This document shows, in pieces, positions 12,118-37,800 of a stretch of 64,000 nucleotides of DNA; position 1 is the first letter of the stretch, and each line of letters starts with the position of its first letter. The position numbers and the translations under genes are program-made. The stretch spans positions 1,950,501 through 2,014,500 of the forward strand of contig NC_030387.2 in the NCBI RefSeq assembly GCF_001625215.2, written 5' to 3'. The stretch comes from Daucus carota subsp. sativus. Its lineage: Eukaryota > Streptophyta > Magnoliopsida > Apiales > Apiaceae. The notes under the pieces were generated by a model. The model made no database searches. It was given only the letters and a program-made list of their open reading frames with translations, and was not told the DNA's origin.

Positions 12118-13199
12118 GAGCAAGTCCAACGATGCCCTAAAATAGTGTCCTACATTAAAATTTGAGGCATTTGATATGAAGATGTAATCCAACAATGTCT
12201 TAGTGGTGCCTCAAAACACTAGGATACACCACATGTGCCTCATTTATAAGGCACACCACACTTGTCCCAAATTATTTTAATCCATAAAATATTTACTTTC
12301 TCTCTCTTCTCACCTTTTTATATTTGGCTTATATATAATTATATTCAAATATATTGATATTTAAGTATTAAGGCAGGAAGATAAGGCATATTGTTGGAAT
12401 AGATGTATGTGCATGGTGTCCTACAAGATATTATATTTTACTAGCCTTTAACCCGTGCGAAGCACGGGCGGGTATATATTTCGTAATTTATTATTTATAA
12501 TTTAAATTTCAACATCATTTTATTAGTATTTTAGTATTAATGGATTGAATTTTAATTAAATTGTATTATTCAACTGACTATATTTTCTCCCGATTATTTG
12601 AAAATAGACAAACCCTAATAAATATATGTGTGTGTGTGTCAAAATTTTAGTACATTTGATCCGAATTTAGTACACGTAGATTTAAAAATAAAAAATCAGA
12701 AAATTTAAATCTTTTACAAATATAGCCGATCGTGTAATACCTTTGAAAGATTATTAATCTAATCAATCGAATTTCAACGTAATTTTGTAATTTTGGTTTT
12801 TTTGACAACAATAACTTTTAAGATTATGTAATGATTCGTGTTTATATTGAAATAGAACACATTAACGTTAAAAAGAGTTATATTGTTCTCGTTAAAAAAA
12901 GATATTCAAAATTGTATATTTATAATTTTATTTATAACATCATTATAATTTTTTTAATGAAATATTATAGGATAATGATTTGTTAGGAGTGTTTTTAGTA
13001 TTTGAAACTGTTTAACAATATAATACTAACAGACTTACATTTGTAGACTTGTAGTACCAAAAGGAGAGTACCAAACCAAAAAATATAACTAAAACCTTGG
13101 ACTACAAATTATACCCATGTTGGCTTATTATAGTATAGTATAGATAGTATAGATTATTATATATTTAGGGGTTCTATTAAGACACCGTTGGACTTACTC
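12118..13199. mobile_element. Tourist/Harbinger-like MITE, split by a Helitron
   Basis: The ends are inverted: GAGCAAGTCCAACGATG on the left and the complement of GAGTAAGTCCAACGGTG on the right. They are flanked by TTA at 12115-12117 and 13200-13202, the 3-bp duplication expected for PIF/Harbinger MITEs. Without the nested Helitron (12441-13144) the element is about 378 bp and non-coding. Confidence 0.7.
12441..13144 (-). mobile_element. Non-autonomous Helitron nested in the Tourist-like MITE
   Basis: Read on the minus strand it starts with TCTATACTATACTATAATAA at 13144, preceded by A. It ends with a GC-rich hairpin (CCCGTGCTTCGCACGGG), a short spacer and CTAG at 12441, followed by T. A|TC...CTAG|T with a subterminal hairpin is the Helitron signature. 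It is about 704 bp with no Rep/helicase ORF, so it is non-autonomous. A relative with the same ends lies at 29973-30377. Confidence 0.72.
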
Positions 13200-13371: not shown

Positions 13372-16300
13372 ATGGATGAAAAGGTACCTGTAATTTGCAC
13401 ATATATGTAAATGTAACTGTAATTTCCAAGTATTAGAAAGATTTTGTAAGTGAAAAGATCAAGATGTGTGTGTTTGTTTTTATAAGATAGGCGTGTCTGT
13501 ATGTGTCGATTCATTTTGCGTTCTCTGGTCTGCAGATATTTTCCGAATTGGAGGAGAAAATTGTAAAGAGCCTTGGCAAGAAAGATGAGGCAGTTTACAA
13601 TGAATACCAAAAAAATGTTAAAAATTATATTTTTATTGATACTGATTTGTTTGTATCGTTATCAAAAGTATTAATGTTGATTTACGGGGACCCAGTATCT
13701 GTGACTCGTCCATCCGGACGTGTGGATATGAATGCTCCTGTTATTGATGGAATGTACCCCCTCCACCTTGCTGTTCTGACATCCTCCCAACTACTAGTTC
13801 GTAGATTAATTGGATTAGATGGAGCTAGGCTCGATGTCAAGTGCTGTGGTGATCCCAATTCACCGTTTTACGGCCTCACTCCATTAGAGATGGCACTCCA
13901 AGTACTGAGGAGGTACACTGAATTCTCTGCACCCAAAATATTACTGTCTTCATAGTCATGTACCTACTATTATTTTAATTACACATTTTGCAGAAATCTT
14001 ATTCCTTGGACTCCTCAAGTGTCTGTACATGAGCTGCTTTCCATGTTTCATGGCAACGCGAAAGTGGTAACATTTTTCGTTTATATTAATATTGCAGAAC
14101 AATTCAGTTCAAACCCTGACAGTCCAAACTAAAGAAAAATCTGTATATTTACTTACAATTTCATTAACTGCAGAAATCACTCATGGAGAACATTTCTCTT
14201 CTTGCATATATTACCCCGCGGATTCGTCATCTCGTTACGGAGTATTCACTTCAGGGGAAGGTTGTTGAGCTTGCTGCTTTGCTAAAGTTGGGATCTTCGC
14301 ATCCCATTGACTACACTATTATGTATGTACCTTCTGCCGACATACCTCCCGAGCTTCATTTTGGGGTCCCCATGATGTTACGCCTGCTTGTTGCTACTAG
14401 ATCTGCCTCACTCATTAAAGAGTGCATTCAGTTATCTGCTGGTTCGAATCCCGAGGAATATGAGAACTGCAAAATAAAGCTCAAGGAAATGGATTTTATC
14501 GGGGCTTTATTGGAGTCTGCAAGGAGGGGTGATCTGAATAGATTTGATAAGGTATGTTGATGTTCTGTCCTATATTGTTTGACTTTTTGTAAATATATTT
14601 GCTACTGTATTAAGTAGTTCTCTACATAAACTAAAAGTAAACTTATATTTTAAAATATAGACTATATTCTTTTCTGCTCAAAATTGCTTAATAGTAATCA
14701 TTGACATGTTCATATGCTTTATTAATCGTATTAAAATTTTAGGTTTTGATGTGAAAAGCTACGTAATGTTACTCAGTGAAGTTTTGGACACGACACCTAT
14801 CCGAAAGTCGGGAATGAAAAAATGAAAATTGGGGACACGGGACACTATCCTATTTTTGGACACGGGTGCAGGGACACACCAGAATATACAATATAACTAA
14901 GTATGGTAAATAAGACATCTTAAACAAAAAAGTAACAATAAAACTCAGACCAAACATAGTTTTCTAAAGGATTTTGCAAACTAGGCATCTTATCTACGTA
15001 TTAAGACACACATAACTATTATTAGCACACAAGATACATATTACTACTAATACTACTATACTTCATCTTATATGACAATTATGATATTCTTATCCCGAAA
15101 TTGCCTGACAAGGGTACGAAGGCCAAAACAGAAGAGTAGAAGACTCGGAGTAACATAGGCAAAAAAACAACTTATTTTAACCTTGTAGACAGTTTAAAAT
15201 TAACCTTTAATTAGGAAAAATTAAAATGAAAACAGTGCTATAAGCGGCTGATCATACTTGGAGTTGATGTAGAATTATAAAAATAATTCTGAGCCCAACT
15301 CGCATCATAAATTTCTGGTATGGGGATTCATTTTCCTCTAAGAACCTGTAATTCTTTTCCACTTATTGACTTCTCCCCCTGTAACTCAAATTATTTTCTT
15401 TTCCTTGCAGGAACAACAGTCAACTGTCAACATCGAACTTACTGATGATATGTTGGTCGGCTCACAAGGTCGGCATCTTTCTAGATCTTCATTTCTAAAC
15501 AACGTGGTCACGTTATTGATTGGTCTGGTTATTTTTAAGCATGTTGTGTGATGCTTAATTAGTTATGCATTTTCCTAGGAGTTTAACTAATTTTTTTATA
15601 AATTATTATTTAACATTCTGTTTATCCCTGCTTCTCAAACGAGCTTAACTAATTTTTTAACATTCTGTTTATCCCTGCTTCTCAAACATCTATCTTCCGG
15701 AATATTTTTCAAAACAACAATAACCACAGATGAATCCAAGGTTAACACAGTAGCACCTTGGTACCTGAAAAACAGCTTGTTCTACATGGACTCATCAAAA
15801 TTTCAGGCTCCTGGGATTTTTAACACAATGGTAAGGGAGATTTCCAATTTTTTTTTTCTGGGTGATGAGCTTTTAGCTGTAAGTGCCATGTACATATAGT
15901 TTATATGCCCCAAGTTTTTGTCATTTTTCAATAATGAAGATTATGATCCTGGGCTCTGTTTATTCATTACTAATTCTCTGATGAATGGACTGTTTGTGCA
16001 GCGTTACTAATTTTCATGGAGTTTTATATACCATGAACTGAATTTATTACTTTTAGTCCTTTTCCATGATTTTAAACGTGCCTAAGGGTTGGATCATTGC
16101 ACATCCCCCAATCATTGCACTTTAGGTGTATAGTTTATATAGGCATTTTTTAAACAGTGTCGGAAACAACTACTTCTGGTATAGAAGTGCACATGGTATT
16201 CAAACAGAAATATAACATTATAGCCAATTCTTATCCCCTGCCATTTACATGTTTACCTGAATTTAAGTTTTCTAGACCAAAACAAGACGTTATAACATTT

Positions 16301-17911
16301 AGATTTGTAATTGTATTAGACGTCACAATTCAATACGCCATCTGTTAGCTTCACTGATACTCCCCTACTATTTGTCTTGCTTGTGGACTGTCATCGAACT
16401 CAGGAATTTTTAAGTGAAGATCTGTTTTGTACAAGTATAACCTTAAACAGATGAATGGTCAGTATCTTAAACTTGAATTTGATAAGCTATTTGATTTTCT
16501 CAACTTATCCCTTCAAAACGCCATATTAGGTTGTTATACCTGGGAGAAAAAAGAAAATTTTCAGGGTACCACCTTGGGCATTGAACAGCTCCAGTCCTTT
16601 TAATCTTTGTATAGTTTATCTTTTCTTTAAAAGTTCAAATAAAGAAATTCAAATTACTTATTTCAGTCCTTGTGTTTTTGGAAATACGTTATTGTTACAG
16701 TGCGCAAACACATATTCATTTTATGGACCTGCTTTTCTTGTTAGTTGCACCCGTGCACACACATGCAGATGTGTGCCTATGTATGTGTGTGTCCGTGCAC
16801 TTGTAGATTCACAGCAAAAGAATAAAATATGTGATTGCGAAACAGATGCCTCGTGGATATGAGGATAAGATGGAATATTATGATGGCTTTGATATCAGAA
16901 GTTGCAATGCTCTAGCAGAGACAATCTTCAGGTAACAACACTTCTCTTGATATTAGTGCAAAAAAATGTAGTGTTTATATTTGATTTGGTCGCAGAGTAC
17001 TTGATGGGAAAAAAGTGGAGGAACTCACTTTACGAGATGCTAGCGATTTCCGGGACGAGTTGGAGGATTTTCTTAAAAACAAGTTCAAGGAGGCTGTGGT
17101 TTTAACGGTAATTGGACTTTCTAGGTCTAGTAAATATTTGCAATGTGGTTAAACACAAACATCATAACTTGCTTTCTGTTTTTTTATGGAATAAGAAATA
17201 GCTAAGTTACCCGGACACGGGTATGGGTATCGGATACGGGTACAGATCCAAGAGTCAGATTCGTAGTTTTAGGATAATTAGGATCCGTGGACATGGATCC
17301 GGAATTAGACTCGGGTACGGGGACTTGGCACTTAAGCTCCACGCAAGTAAAACTTTATATAGACATTTATTGTACATTCATAAAAATAGTGTCTACTGCA
17401 CACAAATCACATATGCTGAAAATTGAAGCATAAAATCAACAAGAACAACATAGAAACAAGTCATTTATGGATCTTGATCTCTATAAACAAGTTGAAATAA
17501 CACCTAAGTTTTCATTTTGACCTGGGATGTTACAAGGTGAGGTGTCCGGTTGTAATAAGAAGGATCCGACACAGATCTCGTACCCACACCCATGTCATGT
17601 CCGGTGGACATGGGTATAGACACAAAAATGGAGAGTCCGGGTAACATAGAGAAATAGTGGTATCGAATATGTAACTTTGGGTGCAGTATGTAACTCAACT
17701 GGTCTTTCTTCTCCAGGCTTTAGAAGAGAAAGCACTTGAAAAAGAAGCCGAGAAGCAGGGGTTCATTTCGGGGTCGAGTTCGCCTGGTAGTGTTACACCT
17801 GTTTTAAAACCTGGTCATTTTTATTATCCTCTAAACAAGGCGTACGAGCGTTTGGATGTCAAAAGAATTTCAACCTCTGTATTCTCTGCTTTAAAGAAAG
17901 GAAAGACATAG
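13372..17911 (+). CDS. Ankyrin-like protein of unknown function, copy 1
   Basis: Ten exons join in phase to a predicted 454-residue protein: 13372-13383, 13536-13912, 13994-14066, 14174-14551, 15411-15468, 15730-15740 (an 11-nt microexon), 15807-15830, 16807-16931, 16996-17107 and 17717-17911. The N-terminal half has ankyrin-type blocks (DGMYPLHLAVLTSS, then a YGLTPLEMA block). The middle holds helical leucine-rich segments. The C-terminal part is charged (ALEEKALEKEAEKQ) and ends LDVKRISTSVFSALKKGKT. I do not recognise the family. The last exon is echoed by an orphan exon at 33467-33649, and the ankyrin part by the gene at 34879-38006. The ATG at 13372 is tentative because the frame stays open upstream. 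The microexon and the 24-nt exon 7 are supported only by phase and splice sites. Confidence 0.6.
17203..17649. mobile_element. hAT-type MITE in the last intron of ankyrin copy 1
   Basis: The 447-bp element starts CTAAGTTACCCGGAC and ends with the complement of CTATGTTACCCGGAC. Identical 8-bp flanks AGAAATAG lie at 17195-17202 and 17650-17657, as expected for hAT insertion. The inside is rich in GGGTA/GGACAC motifs and non-coding. A decayed relative may lie around 14757-14880 in intron 4 (GGACACGGG motifs), but its ends were not found. Confidence 0.75.
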
Positions 17912-22234: not shown

Positions 22235-23137
22235 TTAAAAGACAAACCAAGTGGTATTGGATGGTAAACTTTGGAATTTTACACAATGCCTAAATCTAGG
22301 CAACTCCCTGTGAACAACATCGAATTCCTCCGATGTAACAGCATCACCAGCAACACCCGCACTCGCGAGGAGATCACAGTCCATATTCAGTTCACGGTAG
22401 AGGTGTGAAACTGAATACTCCTCGAAGGATTTCAGAAGCATACCGATGCGGCATATGATGTCCATGATGTCCTCAGGAATTTTCGAGACCTTTCCTTCTA
22501 ATACCTCGACGGCGGAGGCGCAGTCCAACTGAATCCTAACCTTTCTAATTTCACGACAAGTGACGGCAAATTCTAAGGCCTCGCGAATGGCCTGAACCTC
22601 GGCTTTTAGCGTACGTTCTCCCCTGGTGAGATTCTCAAATAAACATATACCATGTGCACTATAGCTACGTATAATGGACCCTTCTAAATCCGTGATCACG
22701 TAGCCAATCCCAAAGTTGCCTTCGTGCTTCTTCCCAATTGAAGCATCTGATCTAATACCATAACATAGTGTATCCTGGCGTAGTAGAGGGCTCAACCGTA
22801 CAATAGGAGTTGCATCCTTGTTCCCTGATCCTTCAACTTTGAGGTATAACTTGTACAGCATGTACAAAAGATCCCCGATGTCATTCATGGTGCATCTGAT
22901 ATACAACGCTATAAAAGTCTCCTTTGAAATATATCTTACAGCGGAGAATAACTTCAGACCCTCAAAGGCAACAATGTTTTCTGAATGATTGCTATCAAAA
23001 CACGACACCGCATCTTTCCATGTCACCGGAACTCCTAGATTTTTCTTAGAATTTAAGGACTTTCGATAAGAGCGGACAACTGCATCAAAGCAGAAACAAT
23101 ATAAATACAGTAACTTTTTGCTACTTAATGCATGCAT
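22235..23137 (-). CDS. RNase H-like (RVT_3 type) protein
   Basis: This is an uninterrupted 300-codon ORF from ATG. The C-terminal part, about residues 125-265, looks like the plant RNase H-like fold found in LINE-derived and free-standing proteins. Candidate catalytic acids are Asp131 (RSDAS), Glu180 (LKAEVQAI), Asp205 (QLDCAS) and Asp253 or Asp255 (NMDCDLLA), in the expected order. The N-terminal 120 residues are not recognised. No reverse transcriptase precedes it, so it may be a domesticated or truncated retroelement tail. It ends FQSLPSNTTWFVF. It lies just downstream of the last recognised exon of the chimeric gene on the same strand and could in principle be its 3' part, but no junction was established. 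Confidence 0.65.
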   Translation of the reverse strand: MHALSSKKLLYLYCFCFDAVVRSYRKSLNSKKNLGVPVTWKDAVSCFDSNHSENIVAFEGLKLFSAVRYISKETFIALYIRCTMNDIGDLLYMLYKLYLKVEGSGNKDATPIVRLSPLLRQDTLCYGIRSDASIGKKHEGNFGIGYVITDLEGSIIRSYSAHGICLFENLTRGERTLKAEVQAIREALEFAVTCREIRKVRIQLDCASAVEVLEGKVSKIPEDIMDIICRIGMLLKSFEEYSVSHLYRELNMDCDLLASAGVAGDAVTSEEFDVVHRELPRFRHCVKFQSLPSNTTWFVF

Positions 23138-23363
23138 GTTTATAAAATGAACATTTTAAAATTTAGTGGGGACGGTTAGGATTGTCACAATACTTAAATT
23201 AGTACGTCAATGCTAGATTAGAATTAGTGAATTATAGTTAGTTACCTTCCGTAAGAAACTTTTCCCTCAATCTGATAGTTAGTCTTTGCATATAATTAGG
23301 TGCAGATTTGTTTTTCTTTTTCACCAAGCATTGTAATACATATTTTTCCATTCAATAAATATA

Positions 23364-23818
23364 GGCTTAATGACCTTTTAGCCCTTGAAGTATGGGTGGA
23401 TGTTCCGATGCGGCCTCGAAGTTTAAAAACGTACTTTTCGACTCTCCAAGTACGTTTGTCGTACCTTTTAGCCCTTTTTAAAAATACCGGTATAAATCGG
23501 GGGATAAACTTGACAATTCATATTCGGGGTAAAGTTTGGGCGTACCTTTTAACCCTTAAAGTATACATCTCGTTCCTTTTAACCCCTAAAGAATACTTAA
23601 AATACATTAGATGTTCCTTTTAACCCTTAATGTTTAATGCTCCTTTTAACCCTTACATGTGAAATGTCAACTTTGTCCACCCCGTTATATACCGGTATAC
23701 GCCATAAGGGCTAAAAGGTACGACACAGATACTTTGAAGGTCGAAAGGTACGTTTTTAAACTTCGAGGCCGCATCGGAACATTCACCCATACTTCGAGGG
23801 CTAAAAGGTCATTAAGCC
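23364..23818. mobile_element. Mutator-like MITE with long inverted repeats
   Basis: The element is 455 bp, flanked by identical 9-bp repeats ATAAATATA at 23355-23363 and 23819-23827. The terminal inverted repeats are about 75-80 bp and nearly perfect. They begin GGCTTAATGACCTTTTAGCC and carry TGCGGCCTCGAAGTTTAAAA. The inside repeats the phrase CTTTTAACCCTTAA and has no coding capacity. Low divergence of the arms suggests fairly recent insertion. Confidence 0.85.
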
Positions 23819-24216
23819 ATAAATATATAGCAGGTTACATTTCTTCTTCTTCTATTGTCAAGCTAGATGGTAGTAACATTGGTCTACTATTAGTGTCAAC
23901 TGATCTTACGAATTTATGGGCTGCTAGCTATTTAATTATGAAGAGTATCTATGTTACTAAGTAGCCTGGGAAAACATATTACTCTGCATTGTCTAACAAG
24001 GCAATGACAATGGGGCTATGACCACACCACTAAGAAACAAACAGGTCAACGATTGCAATGGCATGGTAATCGATTAGATGATGCATGCAAACACTCAAAT
24101 CAAGCACAAACAAGTTGCAACAAGTCAAAATCAACATATTGCTAAATTCAAAATATAATTTACAAAAACATCAAAGTATTGTAAGCGTAAAGCCGCAAAC
24201 AAATCAATCAAGTACA

Positions 24217-24313: not shown

Positions 24314-27300
24314 CCTCTGCAACACCCGGATGAGCCATGAAGTCATCTCTTGAGATGAAGGGAACCGTGACTGGATTATTGGAGTCAGGAGCACTTGAAG
24401 TTGAGGTAAAATTTGAGGACATGAAGCTGCACAATACAAAAATCGAGTCATATATAGAGGATTACATTAAACTGAAATTAAAGATTAATTTAGGTTCAAC
24501 ATAATGTAAAATATCTAATGAGTTATACATGATTAGTCACTAACGGTAATTACCCTTATAACCCTTGTTACTCTTTAAACATGAACAAAATCGGCAAACC
24601 TACCTAGGTGTCTTAATGCGGCTATTGAGAAGTTGAAGGGAGGACTTTCCATTGAGGTTGCTAACAAATCTTTTCATGCCACCACATAGGCGAAAAACCA
24701 AGTGAAGAGTAGATTCCCTCTGGATGTTGTAATCAGCAAGAGTAAAATCATTTTTAAGTTGCTTGCCTGCGAAAATGAGCCTCTGCCCGTGCAAAGGAAT
24801 ACCCTCCTTGTCCTGAATTTTAGCTCGGACACTATCAATAGTGTCCGAACTTTCTGCTTCTATGGTTATAGTCTTTGTAGTCAGGGTCTTCACAAAGATC
24901 TGCATGCCACAACGTAGGCGCAGAATCCTGTCAGACTCAGTCTCTGAAGAATCCTGTAAATGACTATTTTCTTGCCACTGCCCAAACTCGTGTGTGAACT
25001 GCACAACTTCTGTAACGAGGTAACCACTGGAGGCTGTGTACAGTCCTTGAAAGTGAATCAGAGACATGAACTTCAGAAAGCATACATCTAAAACCTTAAA
25101 ATAACTCAGGTTGGAAGCAAAAACACAATGGAACAAGAATGAGTCAATAAAAAAATTACGGGCACCAAATTATTTTCCTGCATTCTACCTTTTAAAGGAT
25201 CTGAGAACACCGTCTTTATAATCTTGTTGAATGTTGTTAAAACATGTAGTACATGTAGTTGATTTGAGGCTTGACTGCACATAACTGGCGAAAATTTGCT
25301 CTGATCTTCATTCTGTAACATGAATACAGATATAGGTTGTAGGACAACATTCTCTCAATGGATGGAACAAATTTAACAATAAATAAGCAGAATAATGTGC
25401 ATGTTGAACCCTAAAATGAGATATCGATTAAAGGAGAACAATGATAAGGAACATAATTCTCATTTTGCCACACGCCTTCAATCAACTTAAATTAGATAAT
25501 TACCTTCCCTTTTGTCCCGGTAACATGGATAAATTTAAGACCAGCTATATGTTCCTCCAAGCCTAAAATCTAAATAGCAAAGGTAAACAAGATTTTGTCA
25601 TCAGAAATTTCAGTTTTGTGAACTCAATAATATGGTAGGGGATAAAACTATAATGAGATCTTTGTAATAAACATAGTCTTAAAAACTGACTAACCACCCC
25701 ACAAAAAAATTTATTTGGAGGCACAGAAATGAGTACAACATTACATTTCTTGGAAAGTCTTTTATATCTTATCTAGTGAAGAGAGTGAATTTCGATAAAT
25801 TAGTAACTCTACAATAAAAGGTACAAGTACTGAGCTCCATTTGATTCTTTGATGTCGTTAATTTAATGCTATTATCCCATTTACAAATCAGAATTACAAT
25901 TATTAAGCTACAGCAAAATTCAAAGATAACAGAAGTATTTATTTTTTATGTTCAAAATTGTATTTGCGAAAATAAATGCAGGAAAGGAAAGTATTAATAC
26001 GGATGGTGAAACTTTTACATTAACACAACCACATGCACACACCACACGTGATTTGGTATACACAACCTTGGAAGTGTAACTGTAATCCTGCTGTCTTGTT
26101 TGAAGTTTTCTAAAATTTTCAGGTAATAGATAGATATAAAGGAACTTCTAGTTCTAGAATATGATTTTCATTATAGATGTAAAAACAGACAGAGGTAGTA
26201 CTCAACTAGAGAAGCAAATGTTCTACTCCTATATCGCAACTGCAAAATCCAGAGAGAATATCTAAAAAGCATAATAACTAGGTAATAAAGAAAAAGAACC
26301 AGAAGAGTAAATGAACATAATGTCTAGACATATGACCTTATCAGCTGCTGCTTGTAAAGTAACCTGGTCTTCCCATTCCCCAGATCTGCAAGGGCCATCA
26401 ATCAAGAAAAGTAACATTAGAATAGTTTGACAACAGCGCAAAGCATTATTGCCAATTAAGAAAGAAGAACGCTCTCTTGGAATTACAAGATAACAACTTT
26501 AAAAGAGTACCCTACTTGGCCACTTTCTCGTAATACTTCTTGTACTTATTTGGGACATAGCCTTCGTACAAAGAACGGTTATTCTTAAGCTGAAATAAAA
26601 GACACATACTAACAGTGAGCAAATAATTTACCAATACTGTTTAATATTCAAGCAAGTAATTCCCCTGTACAACATGCTGATTTTAAAAAGCAGACACAAC
26701 GACCATATACCAAAGGAATAGGTAAAAATTCATGGCTCTCTTCCTAGTAGAACTGAAAACTTTGAAAGGTGCCAGGTTATGAAGGAGACATGTGTCAGAA
26801 AAGCACTTGTATATATGTGAATATGAAATTATTTCAAAAAGAAAATTACAAAGTAAAATTGTTTCACACTAAAGTAGCAGCTGTTTTAATTCAAGCTGAC
26901 ATTTGAATTTTAAAAAAATAGCTATCACAACATTCTGAAGTTTCCGTATCAAAGATCAATCTCAAGTGTGTCCACCCTACCTTTTTTTTTGTATAGCTAC
27001 ACAAAGGAATAAAACTTGAACCTACAGCGGAAACAAAGATGTAACCTAGAATGAACCTATGACCGAGCAAATGAAGACCCAGTCCTAATTAATTCATTGC
27101 TAGTTCTACCTGCAAACCTAAATGATACATCACAGTGGAAATACGACGACTAAGCTAACTTTTGGCATCGACTCTGTTAACACATTGTTGGAAACAACTT
27201 TAAAGCTACATCAGTACTAACCTGTTTCACTACCTCCTTGCGGACATGCTTATGATACTCTGGGATGCTATAAAGTGCACGAGACTGAAAAGAGAACTCA

Positions 27301-29653
27301 CATTACTACATGTAAGTATTAAAATCTCATATCATTAACAAGAATAAAGCCAACCTGAAACTTCCCATCGCCTGTGACCTTTAATTCTAACAAATCATAG
27401 GCGTTCAGCCTAAGAGAAATTGATGCATGGAGGAAGGAAGTAATTATCAGCACATGTATGATTCAAAAAGAAGTATCATGGCATTTCAAGTGAAGCTCCT
27501 AACAAATAGTACTAAATTTGACTGACCAAACTCATAACCGTGTGACCTACAATTTAAAGAATATAGGATGTCTGCTTCACTGGTTAATGAATATCACCAG
27601 CAAACTGATGTTACAACTCCTGTGACATGACCTAAAATTTAAAGAGACAGGATCATATCGAAATTTTGAACTTATTATTTGGTTGGTTGAAAGATAAAAT
27701 TACTGTGCTACCTTGTAAGAAATTTTCACCTATTTAAAAATTGACTAGTGCAAAGATTACCTATTGCATTGATAGAGATTAAAAAGCAGGAGGGGCCAGT
27801 TGTCACTTTAAAATTTATAATATCAACAACTTTGATAAGCAAGAGTTAAAATACTTAAACTATAGTTTATAGGTAAGTTAAGGTTGCAAACATAAATTTA
27901 TTTTTGACCCTCTTGAACTAAATCAAATATACCCAATATGTTTACTTCGTAGAGTCAAATTATATGTTAATCTCAACGTTTAAAATAAACAATAAGATAA
28001 TTGTTTTGTTTAATGAGATAAAAACTTGTTTGTCACGACAATAAAGTTATATTGTTTTTTGAACTACATATACTTTACGCTCCCTGTAGTTTGATTTAAA
28101 ATCCCTAACAAATACTAGAAAAGATAACAATAATTTAACTAAAATTTTAATTAATATAACTTTTCTTTCAAATGTACCTATTTTAAGTACATCCAGAACA
28201 AAAGAAATAGTATACATTAATTAATAATTAATTCTTGTATTAAAGTTATTTTTTCCATATATCTTTAACTAAAAATTCAAAACAAATATTATATGATACA
28301 TTAGGAGTGATATGCTAGTAGCTATAGGACTTCATTATATTATATATAAAGTATAATCCCGATAAGGCTTCATCACATACATTTCTAATTATTCCAGATT
28401 AAATTTTTTACTAGAAAAAAGCTTGTGGCCTGATGAACTCCCGGATAGAAGACGCACCTTTGTAGCAGCCTTTGGTGATCCAAACTAGCATCACTTGTGT
28501 TGAGAATGTAGGTATCTATACGCGGAACATGCTGCAAGATAATGCACTTTAATGTCAACAAAAACTATGAAAAAATTCCTACAATATACAAGATAAATAC
28601 CAAAAAATGCTACCAAATGAAATAATCCAGGCGAGTTTGTGCATAGATTAGTTTATACTGTTGGATGTAACTAATAATTAAAAGAATGGAAGTGGCTATC
28701 CCATTTTATGATCTTGTAATTTACAACAACAAAAAGAGGAAAGAGACATATAAATAAACAACTAACTGACCCGAGGTGCTAAATTATTTTTAGTGAACAC
28801 TTATCACAACTATTCTAATTAGTAAAAAGTTTTGTATTTTTTGCTTATACATCAAAACACAAACAAATACTAACTAAATAATAACCTGGAAGTAATATCT
28901 ACTTCTGTTTACACACTCACATATTAATATGAGTCACACACTCACAGCACATAAAACTACTTACCAAAATTACTTATAACATTTAATCAGCATACACAAT
29001 ACATGCACGCACACATATACATGTATGTAACAACTATGCTGCCAAATAATATATAATATGTACAATAAATAGAAAAAATCTTCGCAAAATTTACCAGAGA
29101 AGAATCATAATCATCAACAATGAGAGTCTCTATCTCTGAGTCCTCAAAAACATCATCATCGATTTTGCAGCTTGGACAAAAAAGCGATGTGATTAGATTC
29201 TAGAAAATGCAAGGAAATTAAACAAGCATAGTTAACAAAGGAAAATCTAAATGCAGCAAATTTTAAGTGTAAGGAGCAAGCATGATTTCCACCAGGAATG
29301 TATTATAGAATAATTCTAATATTAAGACAGACTACTGCATTACATAATGAATTATACACATAAAACTTACCCGAAGTCTTTCCTTGATATCGATTTTATG
29401 AGGGGAGATTAATAGCCCGGTTCTAAAGTCACTTTCTCGCAGATACACATATATGGGAATATGATATGATTTCAAGAAGACAATTACAAAGTAAAATTGT
29501 GTGTAACAACTTCCGCTGACATATAAATTAAAAAAATAGCTATCACAACAGTCTGACATTTAACCTAGAATCAAGCGAGAGACGAATGACCCAGTCCTAA
29601 TTAGAAATAGAAAAACCTTACTGTAATATTTACCTCAAAATCATCGGCGGCAT
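24314..29653 (-). CDS. Chimeric gene: folylpolyglutamate synthase, OTU and polyubiquitin pieces
   Basis: Twelve minus-strand exons connect in a compatible phase: 29634-29653, 29371-29431, 29095-29199, 28458-28531, 27355-27409, 27222-27284, 26516-26589, 26337-26385, 25504-25569, 25189-25312, 24604-25045 and 24314-24426. Exon 2 ([18 protein letters not shown]) and exon 9 ([14 protein letters not shown]) match folylpolyglutamate synthase (FPGS), but in reversed order. Exons 4-8 match a plant OTU cysteine protease up to LQAAADK. Exon 11 holds one ubiquitin unit with parts of its neighbours. Exons 3, 10 and 12 are not recognised. The OTU Asp-Gly-Asn-Cys loop reads DGKF, so deubiquitinase activity is unlikely. 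The start ATG at 29653 and the 3' end are tentative; exon 12 ends in a donor and the stop was not found. It may be an expressed exon-shuffled gene or a pseudogene with a frame still open. Confidence 0.55.
24604..25045 (-). other. Polyubiquitin-derived exon
   Basis: After about 40 unrecognised residues the exon reads [19 protein letters not shown], then a full ubiquitin-like unit, then [19 protein letters not shown]. This is the end of one ubiquitin, one whole unit and the start of a third, as in a polyubiquitin gene. The first Arg-Gly-Gly is Arg-Cys-Gly and the second is Cys-Gly-Gly. The Ile44 patch and Lys48 (LIFAGKQL) are kept. Changes cluster in the loop (GIPLHGQ, LKNDF). Processing by ubiquitin hydrolases at these junctions is doubtful. 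Confidence 0.75.
26337..28531 (-). other. OTU-derived block within the chimeric gene, catalytic Cys lost
   Basis: Five exons keep the layout of a plant OTU deubiquitinase gene: [55 protein letters not shown] and [11 protein letters not shown]. In the family the catalytic loop is GDGNCQ-FRALSDQ, with an intron after CQ. Here it is [12 protein letters not shown], so the nucleophile is Phe and the following helix is shortened. The second half of the domain, including the catalytic His, is absent because the next exon is FPGS-like. Confidence 0.7.
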
Positions 29654-29972: not shown

Positions 29973-30377
29973 GAGCCTTAAACCCGTGCGATTATATAAT
30001 TTTAAATTTATTATATATAATTTAAATTATATGTCATTTTATTAATGTTATAATATTAATGAATTGAAGTTTTATTCAATTATATTCACTCTTATAAGTT
30101 TAGCTTTAACAATATTTTTTTATATTGTAAATTATTAGTATAAATAATAAAATATTTTTTATTTTTTAACTAAGTATAAATTATATTTGAAAGAATAATA
30201 GTGGAGTACATCACATGTGTTTGTAATTTAAATTTTATAAAACTGTTTAATGATATAAGACAAGAGAACTCTACATGCTGGACTCTGGAGACTTGTAGCT
30301 ATAACGAACATGACCATACCAAAATTTTGTACGACTACAAATTATACTCATGTTGGCTTATTATAGTATAGTATAGA
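29973..30377 (-). mobile_element. Decayed short Helitron, same family as 12441-13144
   Basis: On the minus strand it begins TCTATACTATACTATAATAA at 30377, preceded by A, then GCCAACATGAGTATAATTTG, as in the copy at 13144. Its other end keeps GAGCCTTAAACCCGTGCG on the plus strand, but one hairpin arm and the CTAG are degraded. It is about 405 bp and lies 320 bp upstream of the first exon of the chimeric gene. Confidence 0.55.
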
Positions 30378-31443
30378 TAATTTGATATTCATATATTAAT
30401 AAAAAAAATTAAAATCATTAATTACTACTATTAATAATATCAAATGTACTAATTTTAATATAAAATTCAGTAATAAAAATATATATACTTCAACTAAATG
30501 AAATATTTTTCATTGTGAAGTGAATTAAAATACGAATCAAGTACATATCAAAACTATTTTACTCTAATACTGAATAAAATAAAAATAATCTGAAAAACTT
30601 GAATCAAGTGAAATAATTTTCATGTAAAAAAATAAAATACAAATCAAATAACAAATTTATAAGTCAAATAATATCCATTATACAGAATTTCTAAATACAA
30701 ACAGAAATTATAAAGGAAATATTGGAATTCTGACCACCGCATCTAGATCCAAGACGATTTGCGGCATTTGGACAAATATTATATACTGGCCAAATGTAGT
30801 GTACTTCAGATATATAAATTTAGGTACTAATCCTTTCATGAATTTTTTTTCTTTTTTAATTTTTATTGATAGAAAATATATATATATTTTTTAAAATATT
30901 AAGATAAGATGAGAATAGAAATGTAAAGTTAAGCAAGCCATTCTAAAAAATATAGTTATAGATTATATGAAATATGTATCACAAAATTCTAAGCTCGGTG
31001 TCCCCTTACGCGACCTCTCAACTTGTTTGTATTAATAAAAAATATATTATATTTATAATTTTAGGAATAACATTATATTTTAAATAAAATTTCTATGAAT
31101 AAGTTTACAACAAAATATTTATTAAATATATCAAATTAATATAATATTATAAAATATAACTTATTATAATTCTTCCTTAATATACATGTGATCTTTCTTC
31201 ATATATATACATGTTTCGGAATTCCCCCTACAAAATGAGATTAATTTTTATTGTCTTATGTGTAAGTATTGTTTGTTACGTTTACATCCAACTAGTTTTA
31301 TAGCCCGTGCAAGCTCTAACTTAGATGTTGTCACTGGGTTAAACTCCCTTATTTAGTATTTCCGAATGATTGTAATTTTGTCACATGGTAGAACAGTTCT
31401 CATAACTTAGATCTAGCAACTACATAAAGTGAATATATACTAA
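30378..31443. other. AT-rich intergenic DNA
   Basis: Very AT-rich, with no ORF of note. Near 31292-31315 the phrase CTAGTTTTATAGCCCGTGCA resembles another degraded Helitron 3' end (minus strand), but no matching start was found. Confidence 0.5.
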
Positions 31444-33466: not shown

Positions 33467-33649
33467 CTATGCCTTCCCTTTCTTGACAGCAGAAAAAATA
33501 GTGAATGATATCTTTTTGACATCCAGATGCTCAAACACCTCGCTGAGGGAATGAGAAAGAAAAGCAGCTGCAAGACAACAAGGCAAACTCAATCTTGGAG
33601 TTAAACATTTCTCCTCGGCTTGTTTTTTAGGTCCTTTCTCTTCTAAAGC
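33467..33649 (-). pseudogene. Orphan C-terminal exon of the ankyrin-copy-1 type
   Basis: A 61-codon exon follows a strong acceptor (CTTCTTCCAG). It reads ALEEKGPKKQAEEK at the start and LDVKKISFTIFSAVKKGKA at the end, then a stop. It matches the last exon of ankyrin copy 1 (17717-17911) at both ends, is four codons shorter, and is diverged in the middle. The other 3' exons of that gene (for example the one ending NALAETIFR) were not found upstream on this strand. It could be an alternative last exon of the gene at 34879-38006 but is more likely a leftover. Confidence 0.6.
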
Positions 33650-34878
33650 CTGGAAGAAGAAAGACAACTTACATATAGAACCAAAAGCTACAAAACTGAA
33701 TACAAACTTTCTTGTTCCATCGAAAAATAGAAAATAAGGTTCAAATTTGCATTTAACCACATTGCACATATTTATTAAACCAAGCAAGTCCACATTGCAC
33801 TGCACTATAATAATATTTAAACATGCCTATACTGACAATAATGTATTGCCAAAAGATGAGGGCTGTAGTAATTTGAATTTCTTTATTTGAACTTCAAGAG
33901 AAAAAGAAAAACTAATCAAAAGATACCATTCAATGCACCAGGTAGCAGCCACGTACCGTTAAATTATTCGTTTCCCCTCCCATGTATAACATCCTGCTAC
34001 TGATTACATGGCGTTTTGAAGGGATAAGGGGTGGTCATCACATAGCGATCTATTTCAGGTTTATACCATTCTTCTGCTTAAACTTATATTTACACAAAAC
34101 TTGACCAACAGATTTTCGCTTATTTTTTTCAGGAGTTAGATGAGAATCTACAAGGGAGACAAAGGAATAGGAGAGCACCAGTGGACCTAAGAGATGATGG
34201 ATTGAAATCCGATGCCTAATAAATTTACTTTTCCAAATGTTCGGAAGTCATGTTTTGGTCTTGAAAACTTAATTTCAGGTAAACATGCCAATGGCCGATG
34301 ATAAAAATTGGGCAATCATGTTTTATATAAGTTCAAATACTGTGTGTATTGTTATACCGGAGGGAGTTTTCGTGGACAATGTTTGAAAAATGCCCACACA
34401 GACAATAGACCTAGAGTGCAATAATTGGTGGATGTGCAATAATCCTACCCTCTACCTAGGCACAATTAATATCATAGAGAAGAACTAAAAAGTGATAAAT
34501 TAAGTTCATGGAAAAGATAAATCAATGATGAAAATCAGTAATAAATTGCACAACCATCTATTCATCAGAGAATTGGTAATGAACAAACACAGACCATGAA
34601 CATAAAGCTTTATTATAGGGAAAAACACAAACATTGCATGAACGTGGTAAGAAGCAGACATCGCTCCGAGGGATTGTCCAAAGAGGTTGATGAATAGATG
34701 GACCAACACGGGACGAAAATCCACGATGCTGATTGTATAAGAAGCTTGGGCCCACTATCCTCTGAAACATATTGCTAGTGATGCATGATGGCTATAAAAA
34801 CCCAAAGCAAAAACATGGTAGGAGTCAAAAAACACCTCGGAATAATATAGTGAGATGAATAAGATATGTACTATTCAT

Positions 34879-37800
34879 CTATTTTCTTACACTTCTCATA
34901 TTACATCTACAGAGTTGTTCACGACATGGCTTGAAGAAAATTCCTTGGCGATCCTCTTCTTCATCTAAAAAATAACAATTTATTATTAAGTTCTTAACAA
35001 ATGAAAATCAATATTTAACATTATAGCATATGTTTTTAAGTAAGAATATAACCATATTCTTGTTGCTTAAGCGTAGAGTCGAAAGGCATCAGGTCAGGCT
35101 TGGGTGAACTGTCAAGATTATTTAACGAGATTACATAATAGTGAGTGTTAAGCACTTACATCGTATTTAACAACAACAAAATCATCACAAGACTCACCTC
35201 ATTATATCGCTTATATCGCGATCATTGGTGCTCAAGCCGAATCCAGCTCCTTCAAGCAACTCTGCAACATCCGAGGAAACCTGTTCATTTGTCACCTGCA
35301 TATACAAACATTCTCTTAAATTAGAATGAGGTACACATACTACAAAACGATTTACTATCATTGACTACTATTTTTATTACGGCAAAGGAACCAAACTAAT
35401 TGTCATATTTCAAGAGGGAGAAAAATAGTATAACACAAAACTCACATCAGATATCCGATATTCTAAATAAGATTTCAAAGCAGGCCCAACCCTGTTAACG
35501 ATTTCAATCATTTGAAGACAGTATATCATTAACTCTTTTTTCCCCCGACACAACTGTAAAATCTTCGCGTGCTCTTTGCTGCCAACTAAAGCATACTCCT
35601 GATTAATTAGCATCCCAAGCTCATTCAAGATGGCTTCAGGAAACTGCAAGTTGCGTCCACTAGTGACCTTATTACATTGGTAAAAGCTCTGCATAACTCT
35701 GTCTCGGGCCAATAGCAATAGAATAGCCACCGGAACAACTTGTCCCCTTTTAACAGCACTGAAGATTGTATCGGATATGACGGTAGTGGAATCTGAGACC
35801 CCAACAAGCAAGTCAATAGTCTCGAGTGCCTCTCTCTGCAGCAGGGGAAACATGTTGCATTAACTATACAAGCCCAACTAAAAACCACATAAGATTTTAA
35901 AGTATATAGAACTGAACCATTTGAGGGAGGCACAGTGTGATGAATAACTTGTAAACAGATTTCTTTGGACTCCAGTTAATCAGATTTGTATCGCAGCTGC
36001 ATAAGAAGGGTGGGGATTTAAAACAAGAAAACTTGTATCAAACAAGAGCATGTATATTTTCAGACATCAGGGTGTCGTACGTACCTTAAACTTTCAACAG
36101 CAAACTCCATTGGAGAAATACGTGCAGCATCCACGGATCGAACATTAGGATCAGCTCCACGGTTAAGAAATAACCGGATCATACTAGGAGACAAGGAAAG
36201 GGATGCATCATGGAGGGGGTAACTTCCGTAACAATTTACAATGTTAAGCTTCATTAGCGAACCCAGCTTGCGTCTGGGAGAAAGCAACTTTGTTGCACAT
36301 TTGACGGCACGATGATGACACATCTTACCAAGAATACCATAGGGGCACATTTCAAAACTAGAATATTTCAACATCTCGTCATCATTATGATACACGATCT
36401 TTGACTTCCTCAGAAATGAATCAAAAGCATCAGCATCATCATTCTCAATGATATTCCGGATGGGACACAACTCTTTTGATGGAAAAGAACTCCAGTCCTT
36501 CGATTGACCATCACAAACCAAAAACAAGCGAAGATATACAGTCAACAACATATACATGATAAAATCAGAAAATAAAAATAGAAAAACACGTGAATTTCTG
36601 ACTACTTTGATGCACACACATGGCAAGTAAATAAATACAGTAAGAGCATCTCTAAGAGACTCTTAAATGAGCTCTTAAATTGTAATTTGAGGAAGGAGAA
36701 AGAAATTTTTGCTCCAAGAGACTCTTAGTAGCTCTTCATATCACTAAGAGCCTCTTGTTTCTCTCTCCTCTCTCCTCAAAGTTAAGAGCCACTACATAGC
36801 TCTTAACTTATTTTTTATAATAAAATACCCATTCCCTCCAATTGCATTTGAGTTTGTGTCATATACAAGTCCAAACAAGAATAAAATATTAACTTAAGAG
36901 CAATTATAAAGAATATTGTTGGAGTTGAGACTCTTAAATCTATATCAACTTACTAGGAGTCTAATATTTTATATTATATTTAGAGCATCTCCAATGGTGC
37001 TCTTAAATCACTCTTCAAAATATAATATAATATTTGACTCCTAGTGAGTTAAGACATTAAAAAAGATTTCAACTCCAATCTTCCTCTTATACTTGCTCCT
37101 TATTCATATTTTATTCATATAAATGAGAGAGAAAAGTAAAAAGAGAGAATTGTTGGAGGTAAAGTTGGAGGGAAATCAATATTATATTCATGAAAAAGAA
37201 ATTAAGAGCTCTTACATTCTCTTTAAAAGAGAGGAGAGATGATGAGCTCTTAAATTTTTAAAGAGCTTTTACGAGCCCATTGGAGCTCTAATTTTTACTT
37301 TGCTCTTTAAATTTAAAGTTAAGAGCTCATTTAGAGAGCCCCTTGGAGATGCTCTTAGGAATCAAGTAAGAGGCTGTTGGAGATGCATACCACAAAAAGT
37401 TGCAAAATTAAAATAAAAAAAAAAAAAAAAAAACCCTTTTCTACTTAGTAACAACTTATACATTCTCAGAAAATCCCTCTTGTACATTTTGGATAATGTA
37501 AATATGAACCCCACAAATAGAAATAAAAAGTGAAATTGTAATGCATTTTGGGTTGCTTAATCTTATTCTCAATCTCATTAATCGGGTGATAAAATCACAA
37601 GCATGCCTCAATACATAAGTTCTTCTCGCGGTTACCACAACAACTTGTATATACTCCGAAAAGACCTCTTATACATTTTGATAGTGTAAAGATGAACCCA
37701 GTAAACAGAAATAGAAAGTGAAATTGTGATACATTTTGGGTTGCTTAACCTAATTCGCATTCTCGTTAATTGGGTAATAGAATTTCAAGCATACCTCAAT

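Follow-up and report, generated by a model that had tools for sequence, protein, structure and literature searches.

The carrot genome (Daucus carota subsp. sativus, contig NC_030387.2) contains, in a stretch of 64,000 bp analysed here as a whole (positions 1,950,501 to 2,014,500; hereafter, the window), a series of fragments from genes for folylpolyglutamate synthase (FPGS), an OTU deubiquitinase, and polyubiquitin. A preliminary description had presented these fragments, located on the minus strand between window positions 29653 and 24314, as a single twelve-exon chimeric gene. All 12 proposed exons (E1–E12) were located as claimed: an AG precedes E2–E12, a GT follows all 12, and the reading phase agrees at each of the 11 junctions when the exons are joined. 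The origin of the pieces from unrelated families was likewise borne out by matches to PF00240 (ubiquitin; E = 1e-25, with solved ubiquitins matched as well), PF02338 (OTU; E = 2.6e-5), and, with the FPGS pieces joined in their natural order, TIGR01499 (FolC; E = 4.3e-12). The fragments of all three families share the same orientation and have kept their introns, and the earlier proposal of genomic capture, rather than retrotransposition, agrees with this retention of introns in pieces of unrelated genes. The twelve-exon gene itself was recovered with respect to its exons and phases but not its extent, because E12 ends in a GT donor, not a stop, and the chain runs on in phase into a 13th exon at 23079-22235 (693 codons over all 13 exons), while bypassing an FPGS half-exon at 25410. 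The features are summarized in Table 1.

Table 1. Features of the fragment array and related elements (window coordinates; E, exon of the proposed chain)
Feature	Position	Strand	Basis or remark
Proposed exon 1 (ATG, 20 nt)	29634..29653	-	No recognised homology
Diverged, gapped copy of the OTU intron 6 segment	29446..29603	-	Ends at the start of the FPGS half-exon
Split FPGS exon, 3' part	29371..29445	-	Good donor, 5' side truncated; earlier E2 = 29371-29422
Proposed exon 3	29095..29199	-	GT-AG borders; no convincing Pfam match
OTU-gene exon (E4)	28458..28531	-	Tentative assignment, in view of plant OTU proteins
OTU exon (E5)	27355..27409	-	Reads GDGKFQ; weak OTUD5 alignment; tentative
OTU exon (E6)	27222..27284	-	Pfam profile
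OTU intron 6 segment	26811..27091	-	Fuller repeat copy; compare 29446-29603
OTU exon (E7)	26516..26589	-	Pfam profile
Last OTU exon found (E8)	26337..26385	-	Profile match stops here
FPGS exon with P-loop (E9)	25504..25569	-	FolC profile match
Split FPGS exon, 5' part	25390..25410	-	GSTCTLF, acceptor TCATTTTAG; left out of the proposed gene model
Proposed exon 10	25189..25312	-	Sequence, Pfam search
Decayed ubiquitin unit (probable), residues 41-67	24932..25012	-	Frame differs from proposed E11
Full ubiquitin unit	24678..24905	-	61/76 residues as plant ubiquitin
Third, strongly diverged ubiquitin unit (start)	24604..24677	-	Sequence; followed by the proposed donor
Proposed exon 12	24314..24426	-	Closes at a GT donor rather than a stop
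13th in-phase exon, RNase H-like domain (RVT_3)	22235..23079	-	Open for 281 codons to the stop
Related non-autonomous small Helitron	29975..30377	-	Decayed 3' end; 5' end at 30377; upstream of the array
Clean non-autonomous Helitron	12441..13144	-	Intact 3' hairpin and CTAG end

The split FPGS exon

An acceptor lies at 25410, directly after E9, and is followed by the residues GSTCTLF, with which the FPGS P-loop would be expected to continue. Taken singly, the two FPGS exons of the proposed model are too short to score well against FolC (12.9 and 13.2 bits). Addition of GSTCTLF to the first raised its score from 12.9 to 27.6 bits, and the three pieces joined in natural order gave a single match to TIGR01499 of 46.1 bits, spanning profile positions 17-63 with a gap of two residues. 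As expected of a fragment, this score is far beneath the whole-protein cut-off of the model (162.65 bits); the match covers 47 of 400 profile positions, and a complete folylpolyglutamate synthase domain is thus not present. Other Mur-ligase-type models fitted the natural-order join much more weakly. Its matches among solved structures were FolC proteins (best, 6k8c; E = 0.006), and two residues were absent in all five structure alignments shown. Without GSTCTLF, the FPGS pieces gave no match in the Pfam search and no FolC match in the search of solved structures. Two other identities suggested for these pieces were dropped, namely annexin (best E = 0.18), whose query arranged the pieces differently and did not match FolC, and NCAM2 (E = 1.7), for which the query lacked GSTCTLF.

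These data indicate that one FPGS exon has been cut and that its halves now lie in reversed order, but in their original orientation, ~4 kb apart, with the OTU exons between them. The sequence TCTGC is present at both break ends and is a possible microhomology. The segment that ends at the start of the upstream half (29603-29446) resembles a segment of OTU intron 6 (27091-26811) with a local score of 152, whereas 280 other pairs compared in the window reached 65 at most; it represents a dispersed repeat or, alternatively, another piece of OTU origin.

The proposed gene model deals with the split exon by skipping its 5' part and by placing the E2 acceptor within FPGS coding sequence. With splice-site matrices of approximate dicot frequencies, the E2 acceptor had the lowest score of the 11 (-1.7), whereas the acceptor at 25410 scored 2.1, the same as the one chosen by the model (2.1). 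When the acceptor at 25410 is used, the frame stops after 243 residues, and the best donor ahead of this stop scores -1.3, compared with 0.7 for the weakest donor of the model.

Condition of the OTU, ubiquitin, and RNase H-like pieces

In the joined E4–E8, the OTU match covers profile positions 24-78 of 128 and falls in residues 51-104, mainly E6–E8. E4 and E5 are presumed OTU exons in view of known plant OTU proteins, and the alignment of the OTU pieces to OTUD5 is weak (E = 0.97). The arrangement resembles a plant OTU deubiquitinase gene in its consecutive exons and phases (by Pfam for E6–E8, tentatively for E4 and E5) but differs in that the exons contain no cysteine and the match halts at position 78. 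An active OTU protease requires a catalytic cysteine in a DGNC motif and a C-terminal histidine. Because E4–E8 lack cysteine, because GDGKFQ stands at what we take to be the place of DGNC in E5, and because the final 50 profile positions are unmatched, the OTU exons cannot encode an active protease.

The ubiquitin units were compared with the plant ubiquitin protein. In the proposed frame, the opening 40 residues of E11 show no ubiquitin match. In a different frame, however, a probable decayed unit (residues 41-67) was detected at the place expected relative to the next unit, one base short. Among 127838 window positions, three reached its score of 27, namely the true unit, this upstream unit, and one other, and only one of the nine registers tested there gave a positive score. 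An anchored DNA alignment of the unit scored -2, above all 500 simple letter shuffles (mean, -35; maximum, -4). It is the position of the upstream unit, rather than its score, that makes it credible, and E11 probably reads its opening 40 residues in a frame other than that of this unit. The donor polyubiquitin gene may already have contained unequal units. Within the full unit, a near-palindrome is present at 24822-24851, probably by chance.

The 13th exon matched the RNase H-like profile PF13456 (E = 1.1e-11) and is part of an open frame that extends over 22235-23155 and contains D, E, D, and D residues in what we assume to be the expected kind of RNase H motif. This frame may represent a separate gene or a remnant of a long interspersed nuclear element. 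For the remaining exons, no homology of note was obtained: Pfam searches extended to E = 10 gave nothing for E10 or E12 and only a chance-level match for E3, and the choice of E1 is probably arbitrary.

Weight of the open chain

The preliminary description had argued that chance would rarely keep the phase across so many junctions. This argument did not survive comparison with shuffled sequence. The longest open chain was sought by a dynamic search restricted to splice sites no weaker than the weakest used by the proposed model. Of 40 dinucleotide shuffles, 26 gave chains of at least 12 exons, and 3 gave chains of at least 1237 nt, the total length of the proposed exons. In the rest of the window, divided into half-overlapping stretches on each strand, 12 exons were reached in 8 of 36 stretch-strands and 1237 nt in 13 of 36, the latter by our reading mostly those with ordinary genes. 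Phase continuity was accordingly dropped as evidence for a gene, since it is matched by 26 of the shuffles and 8 of the other stretch-strands. The junctions within the OTU block do not count as independent evidence either, because they were inherited ready-made from the OTU gene. The homologous pieces are beyond chance; the in-phase chain of 12 exons by itself is not.

The claim of a single intact gene was likewise unsupported, because the frame is open only if the FPGS half-exon is skipped and a frame other than its own is used for the ubiquitin unit that is probably frameshifted. A new functional chimera, transcribed, spliced from 12 or 13 exons into a protein with a dead OTU part, ubiquitin, and an RNase H-like part, and maintained by selection, would account for the phase agreement of all 13 exons, for an open chain longer than in any of the 40 shuffles at both stringencies, for the preservation of the middle ubiquitin unit, and for the acidic residues of the RNase H exon. 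Such a gene would nevertheless have to leave out the FPGS half-exon, use an acceptor inside FPGS coding sequence, begin E11 probably out of frame with its own ubiquitin, and contain OTU exons devoid of cysteine. When neutral change of the same amount was simulated, the middle ubiquitin unit remained stop-free in about half of the cases, so that its openness is weak evidence for function. We consider a functional chimera improbable. It is slightly less probable still that the locus is a young selected gene that splices a dead OTU, a near-complete ubiquitin, and an RNase H-like domain out of a circularly permuted exon patchwork, and we regard with the same scepticism the corollary that the middle ubiquitin unit has diverged less than the units beside it owing to its use.

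Proposed assembly of the array and candidate vehicles

The explanation we favour, with a probability of about 0.75, is that the array is a patchwork of gene fragments assembled at the DNA level, probably pseudogene-like and without a working protein, and that its FPGS-OTU part passed through a circle or a tandem array. At a minimum, genes for an OTU deubiquitinase, folylpolyglutamate synthase, and polyubiquitin would be among the donors, possibly joined by one for an RNase H-like protein. Fragments of these unrelated genes would have been copied as DNA, introns included, and the FPGS and OTU part would have passed through a closed circle or tandem array. Had a circle broken open within one FPGS exon, whether ahead of integration or in the course of it, the 3' half of that exon would come to lie upstream of the OTU exons and the 5' half downstream of them. 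The FPGS exon halves have the order change that such an event predicts, i.e. from A-B to B-A with orientation unchanged. We infer the circle or tandem step, and also a lack of function and an absence of selection.

Reversed halves could also have arisen without a circle: if a composite of FPGS and OTU was duplicated in tandem and then lost its outer part on each side, the same order of second half, OTU block, and first half would result. The two-residue gap in the FPGS match implies, however, that both outer breaks would have had to fall by coincidence within ~10 bases of one exon position. Opening of a circle explains the reversed halves in one step, whereas a tandem array with outer losses needs two near-coincident breaks; the tandem route appears unlikely, though not negligibly so.

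A circular-DNA-mediated duplication has reportedly occurred at KIT in cattle. In human segmental duplications, a reversed block order accompanied by minor alterations where the blocks join serves as the sign of a circular intermediate (PMC7450558; related work, PMC7188851). The carrot array is similar to circular-DNA-mediated duplications in that two adjacent blocks have changed order but not orientation, and little has been lost at the break; it differs in that the break lies in one small exon, within a multi-gene patchwork.

Several observations weigh against assembly of a functionless patchwork through a circle. The circle is deduced from a single split exon, and in its simplest form it does not account for the intron 6 repeat beside the split. 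Neither the FPGS exons nor the OTU exons contain an internal stop or frameshift, and splicing could conceivably pass over the FPGS half-exon at 25410. The score of the upstream ubiquitin unit is weak alone, given that an unrelated nearby stretch reached 26 in the same scan, and its DNA alignment narrowly beats the best shuffle (-2 versus -4). The middle unit is far better kept than the stretch that precedes it (61/76 versus 7/27 residues identical), and constraint on it is possible. Finally, the best chain of the region (1668 nt, 15 exons) is longer than those of all 40 shuffles (maximum, 1308 nt), as is its best chain at median stringency (870 nt; maximum in shuffles, 381 nt). We take this excess to reflect the true coding pieces, as in gene-bearing DNA.

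Patchworks of gene fragments are a known kind of structure in plants, and gene capture by plant transposons has been reviewed (PMC13317346). A chimera of FPGS, OTU, and ubiquitin was not mentioned in the titles and abstract openings of the literature matches listed. Whereas fragment patchworks are otherwise common in plants, the split and reversed exon is a directly readable trace of how this one was assembled. If donor loci confirm the circle, the locus would document circle-mediated shuffling at the scale of a single exon in a plant genome. It also illustrates how the choice of splice sites can build a seemingly perfect multi-exon frame.

A Helitron that took up the fragments stepwise would be a vehicle compatible with a DNA-level patchwork, e.g. 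if the small Helitron at 29975-30377 was read through past its decayed 3' end. The common orientation of the identified pieces and their kept introns fit such cargo, and this small minus-strand element, which adjoins the array upstream, has an exact 15-base match at its 5' end to the Helitron at 12441-13144. Maize Helitrons are similar in that they carry several unrelated gene pieces per element, taken up by stepwise capture (PMC3288121), and Helitron-borne fragments can yield chimeric transcripts (PMC4528327). Unlike these maize elements, the carrot array is not bracketed by Helitron ends that we could find: the small Helitron merely adjoins it, and the 5' end at 30377 belongs to that small element, which ends at ~29975. 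Downstream on the minus strand, the search for a 3' end was negative. Scanning of the window under strict criteria, confined to G+C-rich hairpins that precede CTRR and T, returned five sites, none of them at 13-46 kb, and the hairpin core CCCGTGC did not occur at 18-24.3 kb. An occurrence of CCCGTGC at 24786 was rejected as a Helitron hairpin because it falls within the ubiquitin coding unit. A Helitron of which one end has been lost or was not recognised is a possible vehicle, and Helitron cargo as an account of the patchwork is a minority option in our estimate. A separate Helitron-like 3' end was observed at 31291-31310, where ACTAG is followed by CCCGTGC with no evident hairpin partner.

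Transposons with terminal inverted repeats (TIRs), of the Pack-MULE or CACTA type, are a further class of conceivable carriers. Plant elements of this type are known to carry gene fragments (PMC1947982; PMC8903248), and the array resembles Pack-MULE, Pack-TYPE, and Tgm-Express (CACTA) carriers in combining exons captured from several genes. It differs from them in that no TIRs with a target duplication were found above the level of controls. When 18-24.5 kb was scanned against 29.4-34 kb, inverted repeats with target duplications were at control level in four of five settings; the setting with a 3-base duplication gave five matches, compared with 0-3 in six controls, and none of the five had an evident transposon end. 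The same scan recovered at once, as a positive control, a miniature inverted-repeat transposable element (MITE) at 23364-23818. A TIR carrier is accordingly regarded as very doubtful.

This MITE is 455 bp long (23355-23827 with its duplications), is located between E12 and the RNase H exon, and has long inverted ends beginning GGCTTAATGACC and a perfect 9-base target duplication, ATAAATATA. From its inverted ends and the length of the duplication, it is presumably Mutator-like.

The window is AT-rich, with a G+C fraction of 0.20-0.42 per kb, its genes and transposons are in our judgement of plant character, and the neighbouring genes include those for pyruvate kinase and WD40 proteins. Searches of the window for tRNA genes and Rfam families gave no match. 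Weak ankyrin matches, below the Pfam cut-offs, were found in two frames that flank the array in opposite orientation, namely 13491-13952 (plus strand) and 36063-36662 (minus strand). Inverted repeats of 76-77% identity are also present, pairing 16224-16367 with 34168-34311 and 17712-17805 with 33561-33654. Together, the ankyrin frames and the inverted repeats suggest an inverted gene pair.

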